This document shows positions 33,337-62,800 of a stretch of DNA of 64,000 nt, one piece after another (positions within the stretch are counted from its first letter, which is position 1; the number at the start of each line of letters is the position of its first letter). Where the stretch lies: assembly GCF_009389715.1 (NCBI RefSeq), contig NC_052404.1:10920480-10984479 (forward strand), given 5' to 3'. Source of the stretch: Phoenix dactylifera (Eukaryota > Streptophyta > Magnoliopsida > Arecales > Arecaceae). The translations under genes and the position numbers were made by a program. The notes under the pieces were generated by a model. The model saw only the letters and a list, made by a program, of their open reading frames with translations, was not told the DNA's origin and did not search any database.

Positions 33337-38129
<4,793 letters not shown>

Positions 38130-46186: not shown

Positions 46187-46352
46187 TAAGGTTTGTCATC
46201 TCGGTACCATATTCCATGCCGGTACCATATTTGTATAATATTGATATGGTACGGTATGAAGATTATTTAGCATATCGAGTATCGGTACGTTCTGTATTAC
46301 TCGGTTCGAATTGGTACGGCGTACCTCGAATAGAATGCTATGGTACTCATGA
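46187..46352 (+). mobile_element. GTAC-rich foldback element, copy 1
   Basis: Starts TAAGGTTTGTCATCTCGGTACC and continues with many GGTACC, GGTACGG and TCGGTACG strings, closing near GCTATGGTACTCATG. Its left end matches the other three copies (AAGGTTYGCCATCTCGGTACC consensus). The right border and target duplication could not be fixed. It lies between the actin and hexosaminidase genes. Confidence 0.6.
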
Positions 46353-47873: not shown

Positions 47874-50800
47874 ATGAACTCCCTCCCCGTCCTTCTTCTT
47901 CTTCTTCTTTTGCTCTCCCTTTTCCTTCTCTCGTCTCCCTCCCATAGGTTTCGCAACTCCACCGCTGCTCTCGACGACTCCACCGTCTACATCTGGCCTC
48001 TCCCCAAAGAATTCCGCCATGGCGACCGGACCTTGGCCGTCGACCCCGACCTGGCTCTCCGACTCGAAGGACCCGGGGGGAACAACTCCACCATCTTGAA
48101 GGAGGCGTTCGAGAGGTATAAGGATTTGATCTTTAAGCCGTGGGCCAGATCCGTCCGGCGGTGGTCGGGGGTGTACGACGTCAGCGAGCTGACTGTGTTC
48201 GTCTCGTCCGATAACGAAACGGTGGGAGCATTCGGTTTTTAGGGTTTCTCGATTCGTTTGCTTATGGTTCTTCGGGTTCTGACGTGATGTGATCCGCTGG
48301 CGAGCAGCTTCAATTAGGCGTGGACGAGAGTTACACCCTCTACGTGGGTGGCGAAGGGCGCCTTTCGATCTTTCGAGGAGCTACGATCGAGGTATGGAAG
48401 ATAGTTGTTGATGTTGTTTCTTGAAAAGAATTCGACATCTGGATCACGTTCTTGATTTGATGCGTCGTTATACTCCTTTCCTGTCCCAGTAATCTTATCT
48501 GGATCACGTTCATCTTAGTGGGATTCGAACCGTTTGTTGACTCGTTTAAGATTTGCTCCCTATAATTCTTTGGCCTATGGCTTACGATCTTGAATCGATG
48601 CGTCTATGTACTCTGTCTTTAATAAGATAGTTTGATTCATTTAAACAGTTTCCTGAGTCGTTAAGATTTCTGATCTAATTTGGAACCTAACGTTCTTTTA
48701 TTTGCAACCAGTAATTGCTTTGACTCTGGACTATGTACTTGATTTGATGCACCGATGTAATTCGTTTTTCATTTGATGATGTGATGGATTCATAGAGTTT
48801 CCTGAGACTCTAAGATTTGGAATCTTTGTTAGAAGCACATATTCTTTTAGTGCGAATTGTCAGTGTCTTCAAGCAGAACTGTTGGTGAAGCGGGTGCCCT
48901 GTAGCTGACCATGAAATGATTAGATAAAGGTTGCTTTTTTTGTATATTGATCATGGCAAATAATAAGAGCAGAGGCAGATTTTTTCCCCAAGATTGGAGT
49001 AGTGAAAGTAGGCAATCTTACACATGATGTTGGAAATATCTAAAATAAGACAAACACCAGTGGTCCAAACTAATCCTTACAAGCTCCAAACAATAATGTT
49101 TTTTGAGTTCTATTATGAATAATTTCCACTTTATTGGTTTGAACAACTGACAGCTTCTTTTCATATCTCCTGACAAACGACAAAATATGCAAGTACAGAA
49201 TCATTTATGTGATATATCTTGTAACTAACACATTATATTGCTATTTGACAATTGATTATTATTCTGATTATTTCTTAAGTTCAATCAATTTTATGTAGAA
49301 GTTAGGGAAACCATCCCTGTTTGGTAAAAAGTTGCTATCTGTAAGATGTAATCTGAACATAAAGTAAGCTCTTTGTTTGATTAAGTTGCCTATCATCATG
49401 ATCTAAAAATAGCTGTCTACTAAAAAACAAATCATTTTTTCCTATACGTATCGTATTATCTTGTAAGAATAAGTGTTACTTTTTGAGAAAAGTAAGAGTA
49501 AATGTTAATTGTTATTTTATTGTTATATTCAATGATTGAATCTTTGATCATATCTGCTGTCACTTAAAGTCTGTTCGCGTGTCAAGCCTATTTACAAAAC
49601 ATTTAATCAGAAAACTATAATTTGTTTTATAATTTATCTTCTGAAATTCATAATCGATGGGAATAAAAAATAAGAATGTTACTCCTATTGTTTCCTATTT
49701 TGTAATGAACTTCACTGTTCATCTCTCAAATCTTACCTTTTTCACTATTGATTTAACAACACTTTGTTCTTTATGTACACAATCTGCATATGTCCCTCAG
49801 ATGCGTTAATATGGGTTAATGTCTCTTGAATATTTCTTTTGTTGCAGGCCAATACTATTTATGGGGCTATGCGTGGGTTAGAGGTATGCATGAACACTGA
49901 TGTTTATAGAACTTTTGCTGTATGAGTTTCACATTGAATCATTTTCCAGGGGTGCGAATGAGCTGAAGCCAAGTGTAAAGCTGCTTGGACTTGGCTTGAT
50001 ATATAAAAAGGCTGCTTGAGCTTGAGCCTAGCTCAACAAAATCTGTTCAAGCTTGGTTCATAAAAGACCGAAGTGGAGCTTTTAACAAGTCGAGCTGAGC
50101 TTTCCTTTATTTTTGCAAGCCACTTATGTTCAGGGTCAGCTTGTTTATGCGCCAATTTTTGAAATTTGTTTGAGCCTGGCTTATCTTCTAACTGAGCTGA
50201 GCAGAAGCAAGCCATTATCAAGCCACACCTGAGCTGCTCATGGATGGCTTGGACTGTTTGCCGCCCTATTCTACACCTTATAGAATTTGTACTGTACAGC
50301 CATGGATAAAACTTACTACTCATATTTTTAATGTGGTATTATTCTATAGCAGCTTCACGTGCATTTACTTGATTCTGTTTTGTGCCATCCTTGGCCAGAC
50401 CTGCATCCCACAATCCATAGAACATGTTCTCATGTGCATGACCAAGATCCTTCTCATCTATATCTTCCAAGTGCCCTCTCCACCTTCCAAAAACCATCCC
50501 TATGCACTAACAATGTTATTCCAGAATCCAATCTTTGGTGACTTATATATGGAAATCATTGCTCTTGCAGCTCTTTTTCATTGATTCATATGTTAAAAGC
50601 TTTCAATCACTATGAAACAGATAGGATCATAGGACCCATTTTGAAGTCCTTCTCATGCCTCTTCTCTTCATGCTACAAATCTTGGGCTATTTTTATTAAT
50701 CATCCCATCGATATTACATGTGCCATATTGTCATACCATGTCATCATGCAACCAATTGGTTCTATTATAACCCAAGATTCACTTATTCGGCCAGCAAAGT

Positions 50801-53800
50801 TTAACTATATGACGGCTTTAGGGTTTTCTTAAATGTTCCAGAAAATTTGGATCCTTTTTTTCGTAGTAATATTTAAATTTGTGACCCTCTGTTATTCTAG
50901 TCATCATACTCTACTACTAACATGCCAAGGACTCAAATATTTCCAATGTTCTTCATGTGGTTGCCAAAGGGTAATCTGGAAGTTGCCAGAAATGGTTGTG
51001 CGGCAAGGAACATCTTGGAACCTGTAATTGATGACAAGTTTTCTGATGTTAACCAATGTGCATGACTGCTATTGCACGAAAGAAGTTCTAACTATATGTA
51101 ATACACACATATGCCCGTATTTGTATATGTGCATATACAATATATATTGATAAAATCATGGTATGCCGTACTGGCCCAAACCGAATAGTACGGGGCGTAC
51201 CATACTAGGTCAACATCGGTATCCGGTATGGATGGCGTACCGAGATGGCGAACCTTAGATAAAATAATACTAAATGTTGGTGGTGGGTAAGTGTAGAGGT
51301 TAAATGCTAATGCAACTGTTGGATTCTTCCTGTTGTGCATGTATTCTGTTTGGAAATTTTTCATTATCACCAGTTCAAAGTTGGATATATGCGCATACAT
51401 GTGCGCATACACACAGAGCATGCATATCCATAGGAATACTGTTCTCAGAGCTCCTAATGAGTGTCTACCTTTTTTTTCCTCTTTGAAACTGCTATTTCTG
51501 TATGCCAAATAACGGTCAGTTTTGGTAGCTTATTTTCGATGCACTACATTGTGCAACTTGTTGCACTACATACAAATGCTTGAAAATTCCTTTCTGACTG
51601 AACTTCATTGTTTCCAGACATTCAGCCAATTGTGTATACTTAATTATGAAACTAAAACTGTAGAAGTGTACAAGGCCCCATGGTACATTCAAGATGAACC
51701 ACGGTTTGCTTTTCGCGGGCTTCTTCTTGGTAAGAAAATGATTGTGCTGTGCATCACACAAATTTACTTTGTTTTTTTCTGCTTCTTTTTTTTTTAGTGT
51801 TTCGAATGTTAAAAGTACATGACTCTCCATTTTGTGTGTATTTGTACTCATTTACAGATACCTCGCGGCATTACCTACCACTAAGTGTGATCAAGCAAGT
51901 GATTGACTCTATGTCGTATGCTAAAATGGTAAGAAGTATTCCTTTTGTAAAGTCAGAGTGGTCAACTCCACCATTTTTTTCTTCTCATTCCTTCTTTCCT
52001 TTTTCCGTCTCACATTTCATGACTTTTTTTTCCATCTACTGATATTGTGAATGGCATTCAGTAGAATGTTCTTCACTGGCACATCATAGACGAACAATCC
52101 TTTCCTTTGGAGGTACCTTCATTTCCAGATTTGTGGAAAGGTTCATACACAAAGTGGGAGAGATATACTGTTGAGGATGCATATGAAGTTGTTGAGTATG
52201 TCATTTGTCATCTTCTTCACATTTTTCTCAGTATGGAGGTTTATGCTCTTTTGGGGTTCTATACTTTAAAAGCTCTCATTGTGTGCTGCTAACTTGACTA
52301 TCTGCTTAAACATTCTAAATATTTTCATCCTTAAAAGCACAGTATTCAGAAAACTTGTAATATTCTAGTCAGAAGTATGTTAAGAATTTCAAATATTCTT
52401 AAATTTGTTATTTCTTCTGTTGAGTGTTATTTCTGTGAAATTTTTACTAATTTAGTTTTGATAAGTACTCTTTCTACATTGAGTTTTTTTATAAGATTGT
52501 GGACAATTGCTTCAGTTGTTAATGATGATTCTTCTTATAAATTAAATTAACATATGATGTTTTTAAATCCTGTGAGTTATCTTCATTGTTTTTTTAAAAC
52601 AATGGGTTATCCATTGTTATTGTAAAACTCTTCAGAAATTGCATGTGGAGCACCCAGCTATCTAGGAACTGTTTTATGTCGGGCAACAAATTTATGACCT
52701 TATCAGACTATTTTTTTGGGCCCATTTCCTATTTTTGAGGCACTATGTGAACCATGGAATGCCGTACCAGCCGGTACGGGCCGGTACGTACCGGTCCGGC
52801 CGTGGACCGGTACCGGAATGGATAAAAAACCGGTATTTTTCGGTTTTTTATCCGAATCGGCCGGTACGGGTGCGTACCGGCCGGTTCGGGCCCGTACCGG
52901 CCGGTTCGGAGCCCGTACTGGCCGGTACCGGCCTCGTACCGGTGCGAACCGGCCGGTTCGCACCGGTACGATTTTTTTTTTTTTTTAAGAACCACAGCGC
53001 CGCGCGCTGTAGTTTTTGAAACCACCGCGTACCGGCCGGTACGGGACCGGTACCAGCCGGTACGTACCGGACCGGACCGGTACCGTACCGGTCCGGCCGG
53101 CCACCGGTACGCCGACCGGTACCGGTACGGCGGACCTTGATGTGAACATTATTAAACAAAAGCATAAACAAGGCTAATTCTTTTGGCTTGAGCCTTGAGG
53201 TTGACTGTGAAATCTAGTTCACAATTGTTTCTCTTTTTCTAGGTCCAAAAAAATGGGTAGTTTCCCATGTCAGGTCTAACTATCTGAGTCTCTTTTGTTC
53301 TCTAATAGCACAAACCTTCCAGAATCCCATTTCAACTTGTATTTAGTGTTCCTCATTGGGTTGTTATTGTTGTACAATGAACAAGTCTATATGTATGTGA
53401 AAGTCGTGAAGCTGACACATATAGCTGAAAGAGTTACACTACAGATGTGTTTTGTTGGAACTGACATCCTGAAATTAGGGTTTCAGCAAAAGTTGCTATT
53501 TCTGTGTTCTTGGTTTTTGGGAAGTCAGGGCCTAAGTGCAGAGCTCAAGCCTTTGACTTTCCAAAAAGTGCTGATCTGTTTTTCATTGGTGATGGGCTAA
53601 AGTCAGCCTAGAAATATGAATATTTACATATTCGGGCAGTTGCGATGAAATATACCCTATGGGTATGATGCCACTAGAACTGAAAATACATACTATTATG
53701 TACATATCATGCATGTGTACACTCATAGGAAAAAATAATGTAATGGATATTTTTACTAAACTTTTTAATATATTGTGACATTCATATTATGATGAACTAC

Positions 53801-56800
53801 CTCGAACATCCCTTATCTCCAATTGAAATGATTTTTTTATGAGAAAATTGAATCAACCATGTGGTGAATAGTAGATGCGCTGAGGAAGAGAGAAGAAAAG
53901 AGGAGGTAGCATAGCAACAATGGTATGAGTGTTACCAGATAAGTAGTGTACGATGTGTCAAGGTTTTGAACTCGGCCATCTAAGTGGGTCACAAATACCA
54001 AGATGGTCTGAGATACTGGGTAGAAGGAGGCTTTGGCCAAAAAGGGAAGGCCAAGATATCCTAGGATCTCGGTAGGTATTTTAGAATTTCAGAATCAAAA
54101 TCTTAACAGGTAAGGTATGTTAGAAATTTTGATTTAGGGAAAAAAACCGTGGGGCTGAAATAACTCACTCTGAACATCTTTTAATGGATTACGTGGTACA
54201 ATTGGGTCAAATAAACCTTTACAGAATAAATATTCAGCGACTTGTGAACCATTGAGTATTGTCTTATTCAATGTTTGGTTGGTTACTGTTTTGCCTACAA
54301 ATGCAATGCAGGCATTAAGTGCTATTTTAAGAAATTAATTTGAATGTTGAGTAATAATCACTTGGATGTGATAAAATCTTGATTCAGAAATATTGGCTGA
54401 AATTTTGATGGCATATCAACATATCAATTTGATATACCGGGATATTTCAGTTTATCTAAGACAAGATATTGATAATACCATGTTGATGGTTGGCCGACAT
54501 TGGTATAAATTGACATCCCTGAGATCTTGGCCAATATGGAAACCTTGCTAGATGCTGACAAGCTACAATGATTCCTAAGCGTGAATTGCGGAAGGAGGGG
54601 TATGAGTGCTAGGATTAGCTGATAAATTAAAGTGATAAAGGTGCAAATTAAATCTCATGATACGGAGGTGTACTAGTTTCCTTGTGGAATAGTATGCCTC
54701 AAGTACCATTATAAGTCTTGATGCTCGGGATGAGTTGTCTCCCTATCACCCCAAGACCGGCTTTTCCACTGGACTTCAAGGATGAAGTGGATATTGAAGC
54801 ACCGGTTGGGTATTAAAGCCCCTAATAAGCCATCAGGACCAGTAGCGTTCCTCCTTATGAAGCTGCCATGCACCATCTCTCCTCTTTCTCTTTCTCTGGT
54901 ATATCTCTTTTTTTCTCTCTCCCTCCTGAGCTACTGTTGAAATCCCCACCTTGGCTTCGAGGTGAGAGGCAATGGCGAAGTTACCAAAAAACCATCATGA
55001 ATGCTGCGAGCCGACGTGTTGGAGGCCCCTGCTCCTACTCCAACTGTAGGCTTCTTCCCCTTCTCTAGCATGATTCATCCCTTTTCTGCTGTATTTCAGT
55101 GATTGGGTCCCTGTCTCGATCCTGTTTCCATGTTGGAATGACATAATACCGATGGCATCATCCCATTTCGGCGATATTTGAATCCATGGTGCAAATGATG
55201 GTGAAGAAGGAAGTCCATAATTGGTTGAGATGATACTAAAAGAGAAGCTATATAGAACCAAAATGGCAACCGATGAAGTGATTAAAGCCATTTGATATAT
55301 GCTGGAGTACTAGGTTTCACAATGGCATAGAGCATCAACCTAGAAACCTTTTGTGTGGAGATCTTGTGGATTAATGGCCCTTGACAATATAAAATGGTAA
55401 CTTTCTTCAGGAAAAGGAAAGAAAGAAAGACAAATGTAACATGGCAAGTGCGAATTAAATAGAGCACTTCAAAGTGGCATGATGAACTGGCTAAAAAAGT
55501 TGACCAGCAACCAAATGGCTAATTGTCGAAGTCAACTGATAACAATGTGGAATGTCTCAGGACAGCAATATGGTTATGTAGTAAGATGATACCAGCATAC
55601 AAGCAGACGATGCTCATGAAAGATGAGCCACCATTAAATACTAAACACAGGATGAAGCATAGCTGAATCCTTAGGTAATGCTGAAAGAAGAAGAGCGACC
55701 AGCAGTCATCCTGCTCAACAAAGCAGGTATCAGAGTCACTGTTTGTGCATATCAAACTATCAAGACTTTGATGGCAGGCCTGGAGACAATCATAGTGCAT
55801 AGGATCGAAGTCAAATATGCCAGATATAAATAGTTTAGTATGTAATTTATTATGTCGGGCAAGTTGAGCCCAATAAACAACATAATCTGCGAAGATCCAA
55901 GCAACAACAACCAGTTTCATAATTAACACAAAGATAAAGCTATATAGAGTCAAACCAATATTTTGGACATAGCACCAACATCAGTAGCATCCAGGAAGGT
56001 TCCGAGAAAGACCACTCTACAGTGAAGAAGGCAAAAAAACGTTAATGAATGCAATTAATTCTGGAAATAGTGGGTTTACAGGGATCATGATAATACATTA
56101 TGGCCCAAGGTTTGGTGGAAAATGCTTAAATGATAAAAACCCTAAAAGTGGCCCAGTCAAAAATAAGACAGAAATGATATGTTTAGATTCTGATCAAGGA
56201 TTAAGATGGCATTTGAGATGGACAAAGTTAGAAGATAGAAGGAATCCTGAGAAATCTTAGTGAAAGAAAATTGTCTAGTATTGATCTTAATCTTCTGGTT
56301 TATGTTACATCCTCACAAGGAATAAGAATATGATAAGTTTAAAGATGTATTTTACAAGACTCACAGAATTTAAATACACAGAGAAACATGGATCATGGAA
56401 AACATGGGACAGTTGGTTGCTCAGGTCCAAAGGACCATGATGATTGCACTGAGAGGTTGCCTGTTCCATGTCTTCCATGGTTGGTTGCATTTTTCCAGAT
56501 GTGATGAGAATTTCCACGGAAGTTGGTGTAGTAGTCCAAACCTTGACATATTGTATTACTCCAATAAGAAGGAAAAGATGTCACATTTATGTCACCTTTG
56601 TATAGTGCTCTGAAATCAGTTTTTATTAATAAGAGCTAATCAGGATTGTAGAAATCGCTTTATCTTTGACGTGGTTATATTTTGTACCAAGGTTTGCCAT
56701 CTCAGTACCATGCTCGTGCAATGTTGGTACACTCGATACGTGGTCAGTTCGGCGTACTAAGACTCGGCATGCTCCCTGTACTAAGTCTTGGTTCAGACCA

Positions 56801-59800
56801 TGTTTTGAACCCTACTCTGTTAATATATTTACTCTTTTATGAAGCACATCCTTCTACATTTTCTATGTTTTGATGTTTCACATACAAGTTATCTTTATTA
56901 ATGAAAATTCTTAGTATTCATATTTGAGTTTGCACTTCTTTCATATGCTAGTTTTTTGCTTAAGATCTTTCTTTGACTTATCATTATTTACTTATTTGTT
57001 GGCCTAATATTTGCATTTTCTCTGATTTTTGCATGGATATCTTGTGGTGAACAGCTTTGCCAAGAAACGAGGTATCAAGATCTCTTTTTTGTTTACTTCA
57101 ATCTCATATTTTGTAACCGTAAACTACAACTCTTGTCCTATGAGATACAAGTATATATTGCATAGATCAGTAGGTCGTATGGCATAGATCATCATTTTCC
57201 TAATTATTATTTGATGCATATGGGGATTGTTACTGCCTGTCACTTAAGAAGTGATGAGATATCAATTACTCTAGCTGCTTTAATTGTTTTCTTTCAGGTA
57301 TCCACATCATGGCAGAAATTGACGTCCCTGGGCATGCAGAATCATGGTAACAATACTTTAACAACTTCTGATGTATGATTATGTTTTTTTTAATGCTTTA
57401 TGATCCTAAAGAGACAACAGCAAGACCAAAACAGTTTTCAGGCTGGAATGTTGAAAAGAGAGGTACTGCGACTTTACTGTATGACAAAAGCTGTGGCTGT
57501 TAAGAGTGACAATCCACACCAACCCCCCCTCTCCCACGGGCCAAACCAAGCTTCTTTCTCTCTCCCCTGTTGTCTTCTCCACCGTCCCAAACTTTTGTCT
57601 TTGATATCTTTAATACTAGTTTTGTTTGTTGGGTCTCTGGAAGCAAGTTTTTGTCTTCCATTGTTGAACAAGTGAATTTGATCATTCAATGTCTAATGTG
57701 GTTATGAGGTGTTTGAGTCTAAAACTTGCCAATGCCCTCTCCTCCACCCTCCACCCTCTCTCTGGACCTGATCTTGACACTTTGATTTGGCACCAAATAT
57801 TTGGTGGTCAACTTTGGGCGTGAGATGGTCTTACCATGAGACATAAAAGGCCAGCTGGCAGGTACAAGGGCACCAACTTTGCCTTTAAGGTACAAGTTGT
57901 AAGTCCAAAAGCCAAATATAATCTCAATTCCATGTTGTTTGTAAATTGAAGTGTATAGTTTTTTTATCTATACCAAATATGAATGATATGGGCAAACATA
58001 TGCTTACAAATATGCTGTAGTTTCATGAACAATGAACTGTTTCAGGCATATTTGGTGAAAAAATGGGTAGCTTTCACAATAATAAACTTTTTAAGTAAAT
58101 GGCTCTAACATAATTAATTAAAAAGAATAATTTATTCATGAAAAAAAGAATGTATTAGTTAAAATTCTGGGGTTTAATTATCCACCTTTTTTCTGCAGAA
58201 ATTTGGATCTACCCTTATATATGGATTCTATGAGTATGAAAGATGTTCATATGATCTTGCTAGATTTAAGGCTTCAATTTTCTGTCATATGACTATTACT
58301 GCTCCATCTGTAGAGCTGTACTCGTTATTTTGTGAACATATTTGATGTTTTGCACAGGGGTGTTGGTTACCCTAACCTTTGGCCTTCTTGTAACTGTACC
58401 GAGCCCCTGGATGTCGCAAAAAATTTCACATTTGAAGTGATTTCTGGAATCCTGACTGGTCAGTTTTCTTTCTTTCTTTTTTTCTTTTTGAAAAAAGGCA
58501 TAACAGTACAGTTTGACTAGCATATTAATCTAGTGCATTTTATCATTTTTCATATTACTAGTCTACTTTACAACACTCTAGCATCTTGTGGTTAAAATAA
58601 ATCGCTTCAAAAAGTTCCAAACAGTGACAGCCACTGCAAAAACTTGAAGCAAATAAGAAAATGTCATTGGAATCTAATCCTCTCTTCCTTGATGCAGTAA
58701 GATGCAGTTTTCTATGAACATTTCCCAATTATAGTTCCTCTATATACTTCTTAATCAACTAAGTAATCCTCTAAATTACAACAGTTTTAACTTTAACTTG
58801 AATATATTTATTTAAATCAAAATTTGCTTAATCTAAAATGATGCTCGAGGAGAAGGAAGTTGGATGGGTTGCATAATAATGCATTTGTTAGTAACAAATG
58901 CATCAGTATGCAATTACAATGAATGAATGCCCTCTCATGAGCAGTAAGTGAAGTTGGATGGGTCATCTATAAGAGCATTATACACGACTAACCAATCTTG
59001 CAACTACTGTATGTTTTGGAAAATTCTATGTGGATTTAAAATAATTGTTGTACAGTAATTCTGTTAGAAAATGCTGAACAAGTCCATTCTTCCGATGCAA
59101 AATCGTGTCATATTTAAATTCCAAACAAAACTAGATGAAAGAACTACACAAGGACCTGATAGTACCCCAAGCTAATGAGGATGAGTTATTATTAACCTTG
59201 ATCAATGATCTTGCTTGAGCAAACTCCATTTGGCCCTGAGCTGGAAATGGTCCATAACATGGCTCTACGTTCGCAGGGTGCCTGGCTGAAATTCATGAAC
59301 TATGACTATATAATTAATGACATTGGTGTAGAAACCTCTGTTAACTAACCAGTTGACCCTAAAAGCTTAAGGGTCAACAATGTATATTAGGCTTAATAAC
59401 ATTACCATATAGCAGTCTCATATATCAGCTATAACCTTCCATTGATTTTAATGCTGGAGTCAGTCCATAGCAACATTTACTCATTTAGATATCATAACAG
59501 ATCTGTATTCAGGTCTAGACCAACCGAAACATCTATATATCACATAATTTGAAGGAATAGAGCTAGACTGGACATACCTGGAACTCACTGTATTTTGGTC
59601 TGGTTCCTCAGAAGCTTAGTGATTATCTTTTGGGAAAGCCCTGCATTTGACAGCATAAAAATTTTAGTTTTGCTATGAACTATTATATAAGATCTTGACC
59701 CGATATTCTTTTGCAGACATGAGAAAAATTTTTCCATTTGGCCTGTTTCACCTGGGAGGGGATGAAGTAAATACAGGTTAGTTGGTCACTCTTACTGACA

Positions 59801-62800
59801 GTTCGACACAAACTGATGTGCATTACCTTTTTGCTTGTGAGAAGGTTTTTACTGTTGTTCTTTTTGTGAGATGACTGCTTTGGTTAAATAAACTTAATCA
59901 TAGTTAAAGACCTGTAACTTTATATTCAGTCATGCAAATTTAGCATTTCTTTCAATGGCATGAGCAAGCTATTCTAGCAAAGGCTTAACATCTTGAAATG
60001 TGATTACAAAGAGTGATGCTGTTGTTACTCTATCTTTGCTGCTATAACATGGAAACTCTGTTTTAAATCAAAATTAATGTAAAACTGTTGTGGATATCTA
60101 CATTGGGTTATGGTTGAGTACAATGAGTTGAGGAACATGATGTAACTGTTCCACTTTCCTTGACAAACATGATTTACATACCAACATGCCAACACATCTT
60201 ATATCTGGAACAGAGGGCAAAGCCGTGGAAAAAATTCTAGACACTTAATCTTACATCAAGTATGATGAACATCGATACTCTAGCAGAAGTTAAAAAATAT
60301 TTGTGATAGGTAACCTATAGATGGGAACTAATTTTTGACCATTAGTGTTTCTTTAAATGAATAGCACCAGTAAACAATTTTGTCCTCTGGATTTCATAAA
60401 AAAGTGACAAGTTACCCCATGCAATTTCTGAAATATTTAATATACTGAAATGACTTATTATCATGTACTTTTACTCTAAAAAAAGACAACATGTACTTTT
60501 TGTTTAAACTTAGTATTGGTTTTATCTTTGCTTCTTGTTTCTGCCTAAAATGTGTTGCTGAATGTATCGGTAAAGCATGAAAAGTTATTCATTCTCAAGG
60601 AATATTTGTTTTGGTTTCCTTTTGAACGCTTCTATTGCCCACACATAAATAGGAACAAGAATACACCATCATCATAACTTACAGACCTGCTTATAATCTT
60701 GAATAAAACACAAGTTCTACATGTTCAGATGTGAGTGAACTTCCTCCCCTCCCTCCCTCCGTCCATCCACCCCCCCTCTCTCTCCTCCCCCCCCACTTCT
60801 GTCTTTCTGTCCCTCTCTCTCTCTCTTTCCGCATGTGGATGGATGTTGTTTGTGTGTCTGTGCGCTTGCAATTGTGAAGTTTCTGTGTGCATACATGTGG
60901 CATCAAAAGGGGGCATGCTACTTGAGAAACTTACAACCATTGTTGAGCATCAAAAGGGATCCAAGAGTTGAGCGGAAGCCAGTAGTATAAACTACATATC
61001 CTAGCTGAAGGTAGAGGAAGAGGAGATAGAAGTGGACACCCTGCCCTAAGAAGTCAGGAGTGGGTACAAAGCATGGAATACTAGAAATTTAATTGGAAAA
61101 TGGATAAATTTTATGTTGCACATAACTTAATATGGCACAAGAAATGAGTACAGGAGCATACAGGGTTGATTCAAGAACGGGTTCAAAGACTATAGTTTAG
61201 CAATCCTTGTTTTGAAGCTCCAACTTAAACAACACATGAGATGTGTAGGTAGGTGTATGCCTATATGTTTGCGTACAATAAATGCACATAAATAAACATA
61301 TTTTTATCTATTTATATGTCTGCCTGGGTGTCATCTAGGATTTAATCTTTTAAATGATGTTTTATAGTTCTAAAGGTCAACTGGGAAGTGTTAAGATCTT
61401 TGATTAGCCAGGTTGTATTTTCTCTCTTCCATTTATTTGTTTACTTATTAGACAAGGTTTAGGTGCCAGATGACCAGATAAGAATGGTATAGGTTGATGG
61501 GTTAAGTGCTGCTTTTGTTCCTTTATAATGTAGAGTCCTACTAGAACTTTAATTGGTCAGATTGTGCATTTTGGATTATCGAATATGGGGTTATGATCAA
61601 GGTTTCAAGTATTGGTGAGACAACGGGGCATCCTATCATCCTGAGTGCTGGGACAGAATAGGTTGGGAAATGGACCAAGACAGGTAATCCACTGTTTTGG
61701 GTGTCGGTACGTGGGGCATCCCATTTGATAGAAAACTAGGACGACCCCATCCCACGGTATTCAAAACCTTGGTTATGATTCTATTGAGGGGCATGTTTTT
61801 GACTTATTTTTGAAGATAGAAATTTACTGCAAAGTTTGGTCTGGCTATTTAGATCTATTCAACCAATCCCTCCATCTATGTTCCTCCTGCTTTCCTTACT
61901 GCCCTTGTTCTTCTTATCTACTGACACTTTGCAGAAGAGATCAAATTTTTTGAGCAAAAATGATCACATTCAAATCTATATTCTTCTCCTTTTTCTAATA
62001 GTTTACTGCCACGACTTTCTGAACTACTAGATTTTTCTTTATGCAAATCATGATTTTGATCTGACTTAAAATCCCAAGTATCTACTTGGCACTGAACCAA
62101 TAAAAAATTCTAATGCTTCTTATCCCAAGCTCTAACCCTAATGATCTGATCATCCCTTGCAAGCATATTTCAGTTCTGCTAACCTGCCCTGTGCTATATA
62201 AATGAAACTAGCTCATTGAGCCTGATTATCATATTACAGGTTATTCCTTGCAGGGGACTCAAATAAACCCTTTGCTTTGCTCCCATGCCACATATTTCAA
62301 TAGAAATCCCAGGACAGCATATCTTATTTTCCTATGCTCAGTAAGTTAGAATTTAATGCAGATATGTCCACCTACTCTCCTTGTTAATATTGCCTTTAGA
62401 AAGAAGGAAAAACTTTAACATGTTTAGGTAGTTAGGGTTGATTTGTGATATATGAAAGGGTTATTACAAGGATTGAGTGAAGGATATAATTAATTAACTG
62501 GATAGAATGTTAAGTATTTGGTCTATATAATTAGAATAGATTGTTCTCTTCTCATCTTTGACTTAGCCTTGTTAGATTATCTCTTAGGGTTGGATTGATG
62601 GAGAGATACCATTATAAGTCTTACCAAAAGCAATGCAGAAGACAGATTAGCATGGAACAAAAAATTAAGAGTTTTGATTATATGGGTAAAGCTACATTTC
62701 TTTAATTTCCAGGTTTCCCACTACTTTTTTTGGTGGCGAGACACCATCAACACCTTATGTGCAATGTGAACCACAAAAATATTATTTCAGAAGAAACACA

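Follow-up and report, generated by a model that had tools for sequence, protein, structure and literature searches.

E1, a 387-bp GTAC-rich insertion in a β-hexosaminidase intron of Phoenix dactylifera, very probably belongs to a non-autonomous hAT family that is present in many copies and was amplified recently. We found it in a stretch of 64,000 nucleotides, referred to here as the window. It would have entered the intron by cut-and-paste insertion, with 8 bp of target duplicated. In this family the tips are constant, and three arrays of CCGGTAC-type words fill the interior.

Structure and position of E1

The first-pass annotation described a 387-bp insert with ATGTGAAC on both sides, and both copies are exact, at 52745 and 53140, with 387 bp between them (Table 1). 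The target-site duplication (TSD) is 8 bp long and cannot be extended to 9 bp, which ruled out a MULE (9- to 11-bp TSD). The tips, CATGGAATGCCGTACC and CAAGGTCCGCCGTACC, match at 12 of 16 positions, a score tied for the best among the window's 2,647 pairs of 8-bp direct repeats with a spacing of 80 to 1500 bp; a second pair with this score is inside E1. Exact 8-bp repeats within ±10 bp of both edges were found for 653 of 60,000 random 387-bp blocks (1.1%), and a repeat lying flush at the E1 spacing occurs at 4 of 63,300 window positions, E1 counted among them. The tips of hAT elements follow the rule YARNG. The right tip of E1 (CAAGG) conforms to it; the left tip (CATGG) starts with CA and departs at base 3, which counts against a hAT reading.

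E1 has 64% GC, compared with 33–44% in 29 of the 32 two-kilobase steps of the window. It contains CCGGTAC 13 times (mean 0.47 and maximum 4 in 500 Markov controls), and words with at most two mismatches from CCGGTACCGG cover 37% of its length (controls, mean 6% and maximum 19%). Tandem periods of 10, 16, 20, and 21 bp run through it, together with three hairpin or palindrome features (spacer 1, the palindrome in block B, and the hairpin core of spacer 2). E1 had been described as almost wholly made of GTAC permutations; it is indeed GTAC-rich, but the blocks account for 302 of the 387 bp. CGTACG, also attributed to the element, is absent from it, and all five copies in the window lie outside. 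The six stop-free frames through E1 matched no Pfam family at E 0.1.

The + strand of the window bears a GH20 β-hexosaminidase gene. Three of six stop-free frames scanned gave Pfam matches: Glycohydro_20b2 at 47874-48242, Glyco_hydro_20 at 52065-52292, and actin upstream. The match on the upstream exon agrees with the intron location given in the first-pass annotation. By eye, this exon stops close to 52193, and coding sequence resumes near 57053, presumably in the next hexosaminidase exon; E1 and the short relative E4 therefore probably share one β-hexosaminidase intron.

Table 1. Coordinates of E1, its parts, its short relatives, and the host-gene exon in the window
Feature	Coordinates	Strand	Remarks
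Host-gene exon upstream of E1, GH20 β-hexosaminidase	52065..52193	+	PF00728, E 2.1e-9; donor site by eye
Left target-site duplication	52745..52752	.	ATGTGAAC
E1, 387-bp non-autonomous element	52753..53139	+	64% GC, 61 CpG
E1 left end	52753..52772	+	17/20 identity with E2 left end
GTAC block A	52753..52819	+	67 bp, 5 GTAC
Spacer 1, AT-rich hairpin between blocks A and B	52820..52853	+	
GTAC block B	52854..52971	+	118 bp, 7 GTAC; contains 38-bp perfect palindrome 52934-52971
Spacer 2, poly-T and hairpin between blocks B and C	52972..53022	+	hairpin core 52994-53010
GTAC block C	53023..53139	+	117 bp, 10 GTAC
E1 right end	53119..53139	+	16/21 identity with E2 right end
Right target-site duplication	53140..53147	.	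ATGTGAAC
E2, 101-bp short relative	51157..51257	+	exact TSD GATAAAAT at 51149-51156 and 51258-51265
E4, 115-bp short relative	56688..56802	-	right end exact to pattern; TSD 7/8 (TTTTGTAC/TTTTGAAC)
E5, decayed short relative	46187..46328	-	both ends present; no recognisable TSD

Copies in the genome and their target sites

The whole-genome copy count proposed in the first-pass annotation gave 456 exact matches to the left end in a genome of 773 Mb, and none to the reversed-pattern control. Searching the genome with E1 yielded 1,818 first-look candidates, the best 40 of which were scored (E1 and 39 others), so that the family counts are lower bounds. All 39 other copies are near full length, with 91–98% identity, and 33 have an exact 8-bp TSD, four match at 7 of 8 positions, one is displaced, and one has none. 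The first pass had given 31 exact TSDs and four at 7/8; the other two exact TSDs are those of L028 and L043, which a 24-bp deletion had shifted beyond the range searched. The displaced case, L020, has only a 7-bp repeat, one base out of position, and no TSD was found in L025. Copies with located tips carry the same tips throughout, CATGGAATGCC and CAAGGTCCGCC, except for single changes in L020 and L046, and 36 copies measured 374–430 bp. The family is thus a high-copy, non-autonomous, GC-rich MITE. The copies have defined ends, which a tandem satellite would lack, and with 33 exact and four 7/8 duplications among 39, most of them do not want for an 8-bp TSD. A satellite or chance repeat was ruled out by the genome copies, their TSDs, and their differing flanks.

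Target preference was examined in 36 TSDs, those of E1 and 35 first-pass copies. An earlier test on four window sites had given 3 of 4, but one site belonged to another family and one had an imperfect TSD, so the genome set was used instead. The 36 TSDs are all different. T occupies position 2 in 24 (P = 1.5e-5) and A position 7 in 20 (P = 0.0025); nTnnnnAn as a whole is present in 13, compared with 9.7% of 8-mers in the copies' own flanks (P = 1.8e-5), and the remaining 23 deviate from it somewhere. The T2/A7 preference matches nTnnnnAn, the target preference given for Hermes in the sections consulted of PMC10368747, and supports a hAT assignment; 8-bp targets and CA tips are ascribed to hAT elements in passages of PMC4423477. 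With 33 exact duplications in 39 other copies and this preference, the first-pass assignment to a non-autonomous hAT type stands: the E1 family represents a common class of transposable element and is unusual in how palindromic it is. Its high GC content counts against this, as the hAT MITEs of Brassica are AT-rich in the portion of PMC7385995 that describes them.

The first-pass term "foldback" suits E1 as a description of shape and of nothing beyond shape. Taken as a class, it would make E1 an FB/Galileo-type element, related to P elements or MULEs, with long, internally repetitive inverted arms. The outer arms of E1 do pair over 56 positions, which word tiling largely explains, and E1 has subrepeats of 10–21 bp; Galileo has several transposase sites in long repetitive TIRs (parts of PMC3688188). 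However, the exact 8-bp TSDs in 33 of 39 copies, the T2/A7 preference, and the many hAT transposases found by the hAT domain search make such an origin very unlikely.

We regard as similarly improbable the view that E1 has been co-opted as an RNA regulator, an intronic hairpin that feeds small RNAs or alters splicing. Its position in a gene's intron and its fold speak for this: the RNA has an MFE of −271.6 kcal/mol (z = −14.8 against 100 dinucleotide shuffles), and the DNA fold has z = −12.9. When Markov controls were used instead (orders 1 to 5, 60 sequences each), however, z fell to −5.9, −3.5, −2.3, −2.0, and only −1.65, with 4 of the 60 fifth-order controls equally stable. These higher-order controls weakened the case for an exceptional RNA structure, although shuffling in 12-bp chunks still gave z = −9.4. 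Folding energies are similar across the 36 family copies (−0.68 to −0.78 kcal/mol per base), so the fold of E1 is not special to its site, and at gathering scores Rfam had no match in the whole window. The folding that the first-pass annotation suggested for the intron RNA is strong, but it is mostly a by-product of tiling a palindromic word.

The possibility that a GTAC palindrome expanded locally, like a microsatellite, between chance 8-bp repeats, for which the tandem periods and the 1.1% frequency of such repeats near both edges might speak, has a negligible probability and is in effect already refuted by the same interior in 39 other copies with different flanks and by the 36 different TSDs.

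Amplification of the hAT family looks recent, given the low pairwise divergence of 36 copies (mean 3.0%, range 0.5–6.5%), a set of top-ranked copies in which young ones are hence over-represented. Of 246 departures from the majority base of a column, 126 are C>T or G>A, a share such as methylated DNA may give. Each copy holds 19–26 GTAC and 10–15 CCGGTAC. Larger indels comprise seven insertions (10–34 bp) and 11 deletions (10 bp or longer), of which 10 measure exactly 10 bp; these counts depend on the alignment, and shared deletions are counted more than once. E1 lacks one 10-bp word found near the left end of most aligned copies, L015 has 34 additional bp near its left end, and L041 has 22 further in. 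Such word-sized indels among near-identical copies indicate that words are added to the arrays and lost from them. An interior of GTAC arrays is normal for the family and nothing peculiar to E1. Amplification of a short ancestor in E1 only was considered and refuted by the same arrays in other genome copies.

Short relatives and other elements in the window

In the window, ten pairs of YANGG-type tips are bordered by 8-bp repeats that differ at no more than one position. Three have exact repeats: E1, E2, and an unrelated-looking 174-bp element at 61598-61771. E2 is identical to the two E1 ends at 33 of 41 positions and has its own exact TSD, whereas the best score in 60 random windows compared with the E1 ends was 28 without an exact TSD and 22 with one. 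A right-end pattern built from the short relatives matches E5, E2, and E4 (0 expected), and the left-end pattern matches E5, E2, and both E1 ends (0.29 expected). Genome-wide, the exact right end of the short family occurs 67 times, with none for the reversed control. GTAC density in the short relatives is 3.5–4.2 per 100 bp, compared with 0.20 in the remaining window; E2, E4, and E5 have 4, 4, and 6 GTAC and 0, 0, and 1 CCGGTAC/GTACCGG, respectively.

With the E1 ends as query, E4 and E5 were absent from the top rows. Whole-element nhmmer matches were not significant (E1 with E2, E = 1.3; E2 with pieces of E5, 0.12 and 0.24; E2 with E4, 1.6). On these comparisons, E1 and the short relatives appear akin at their ends, and their interiors show no significant alignment. 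The end pattern of the short family had no match in the genome-contig collection and one in viral contigs (L001, 70% GC, phage-like by eye), which we take as chance.

The window has other repeats. The 174-bp element is a separate hAT-like MITE (61590-61779 with its TSD) that has few GTAC and probably belongs to another family; its tips are CAAGGTTTCAAGTATT and CAAGGTTTTGAATACC, and its exact 8-bp TSD, GTTATGAT, can also be read as 9 bp. CAAGGTTTTGAACTCGG at 53959-53975 may be the solitary end of an element of the CAAGGTTT type; we found no partner for it. A 197-bp unit is present in two tandem copies (86% matching) at 37634-38021, and about five copies of TAAACCC, which we take to be a telomere-like heptamer, lie at 424-457.

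Transposase sources, word arrays, and known systems

A search of the genome for the hAT dimerization domain PF05699 gave 1,658 candidates, 150 of which were scored; several loci have open frames of 660–707 aa, and none of 14 control genomes was positive. Of the 150, we inspected 38 loci: family ends were found neither within 1.5 kb of the 30 best matches nor around the transposase frames of eight further hAT loci (L080–L087), which counts against the hAT reading. One of these loci has a broken hAT transposase frame and, at a distance of about 200 bp, an E1-type copy (L080:1091-1485) with a TSD of its own.

A hAT element of 3,173 bp lies at L082:324-3496. Its open frame of 685 aa matches PF05699 and PF14372, its TSD is exact (AATATAAC), and its TIRs agree at 11 of 12 positions. 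Like the E1 family, it has an 8-bp TSD and GC-rich word arrays inside its ends, but its word, CACGGCCCG (six copies inside one end and two inside the other), and its tips, TATACTTGGGC and TAGACTTGGGC, are unlike those of the E1 family; it is therefore not the autonomous form. In L086, a frame of 609 aa is enclosed by a 3,568-bp element whose tips match at 12 of 12 positions and whose TSD is ACCAGAAG. Starting 27 bp beyond the L082 element is a 183-bp GTAC-bearing MITE (L082:3524-3706; tips CAAGATTCACC and CAAGGTACGCT, exact TSD TACCCAAG).

The GC-rich word arrays in the ends of the L082 hAT element, from the same genome, support reading CCGGTAC as a subterminal repeat. Short subterminal repeats near the tips are bound by the transposases of Hermes and Ac/Ds, with motifs that differ from CCGGTAC; two Hermes repeats make a quasi-palindrome (PMC10368747), and the control of Ds is reported to involve methylation of GC-rich repeats (passages of PMC10368747 and PMC12910297). 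We infer that the CCGGTAC words are putative subterminal transposase-binding sites. A hAT transposase encoded at another locus would mobilize the element, and whole words may be gained or lost in the arrays through slippage or through copying templated by hairpins. A doubtful extension is that the evolving unit might be the transposase-binding word itself: gains and losses most often of 10 bp, about one helical turn, would tune the number and helical phase of sites while the tips stay fixed, and the hATs of this genome would have evolved as a series of GC-rich word arrays in which each transposase has its own word.

hAT MITEs are common in plants. BniHAT-1 and -2 of Brassica nigra are likewise non-coding and high in copy number, with short TIRs and 8-bp TSDs; however, they measure 666–673 bp with 70–75% AT, whereas members of the E1 family have about 360–430 bp, 64–67% GC, and one palindromic word (PMC7385995, in part). 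A close parallel in design is the MITE-like stem-loop near switchgrass enod40, which repeats the GC-rich palindrome AGGCG(T/A)CGCCT and, as in the E1 family, has similar genome copies with 8-nt TSDs; its word is different, 2.5 repeats are reported, and the parts of the paper covered make no hAT assignment (PMC10578108). Galileo and Foldback resemble E1 in having inverted arms that are repetitive within and that carry several transposase sites, which in E1 are putative, but Galileo belongs to the P superfamily and has TIRs of 0.5–1.2 kb, unlike E1 (PMC3688188, in the sections describing them). Among the matches listed in the open-access literature, no paper dealt with a GTAC-rich hAT MITE.

If the words are not binding sites, the family is one more plant hAT MITE of odd composition. 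When palindromic elements of this sort insert into introns, they can interfere with genome assembly, become targets of methylation, and cause the pre-mRNA to fold. Hundreds of near-identical copies that differ by whole words amount to a natural experiment, in which the success of a copy may be set against the number and spacing of its words.
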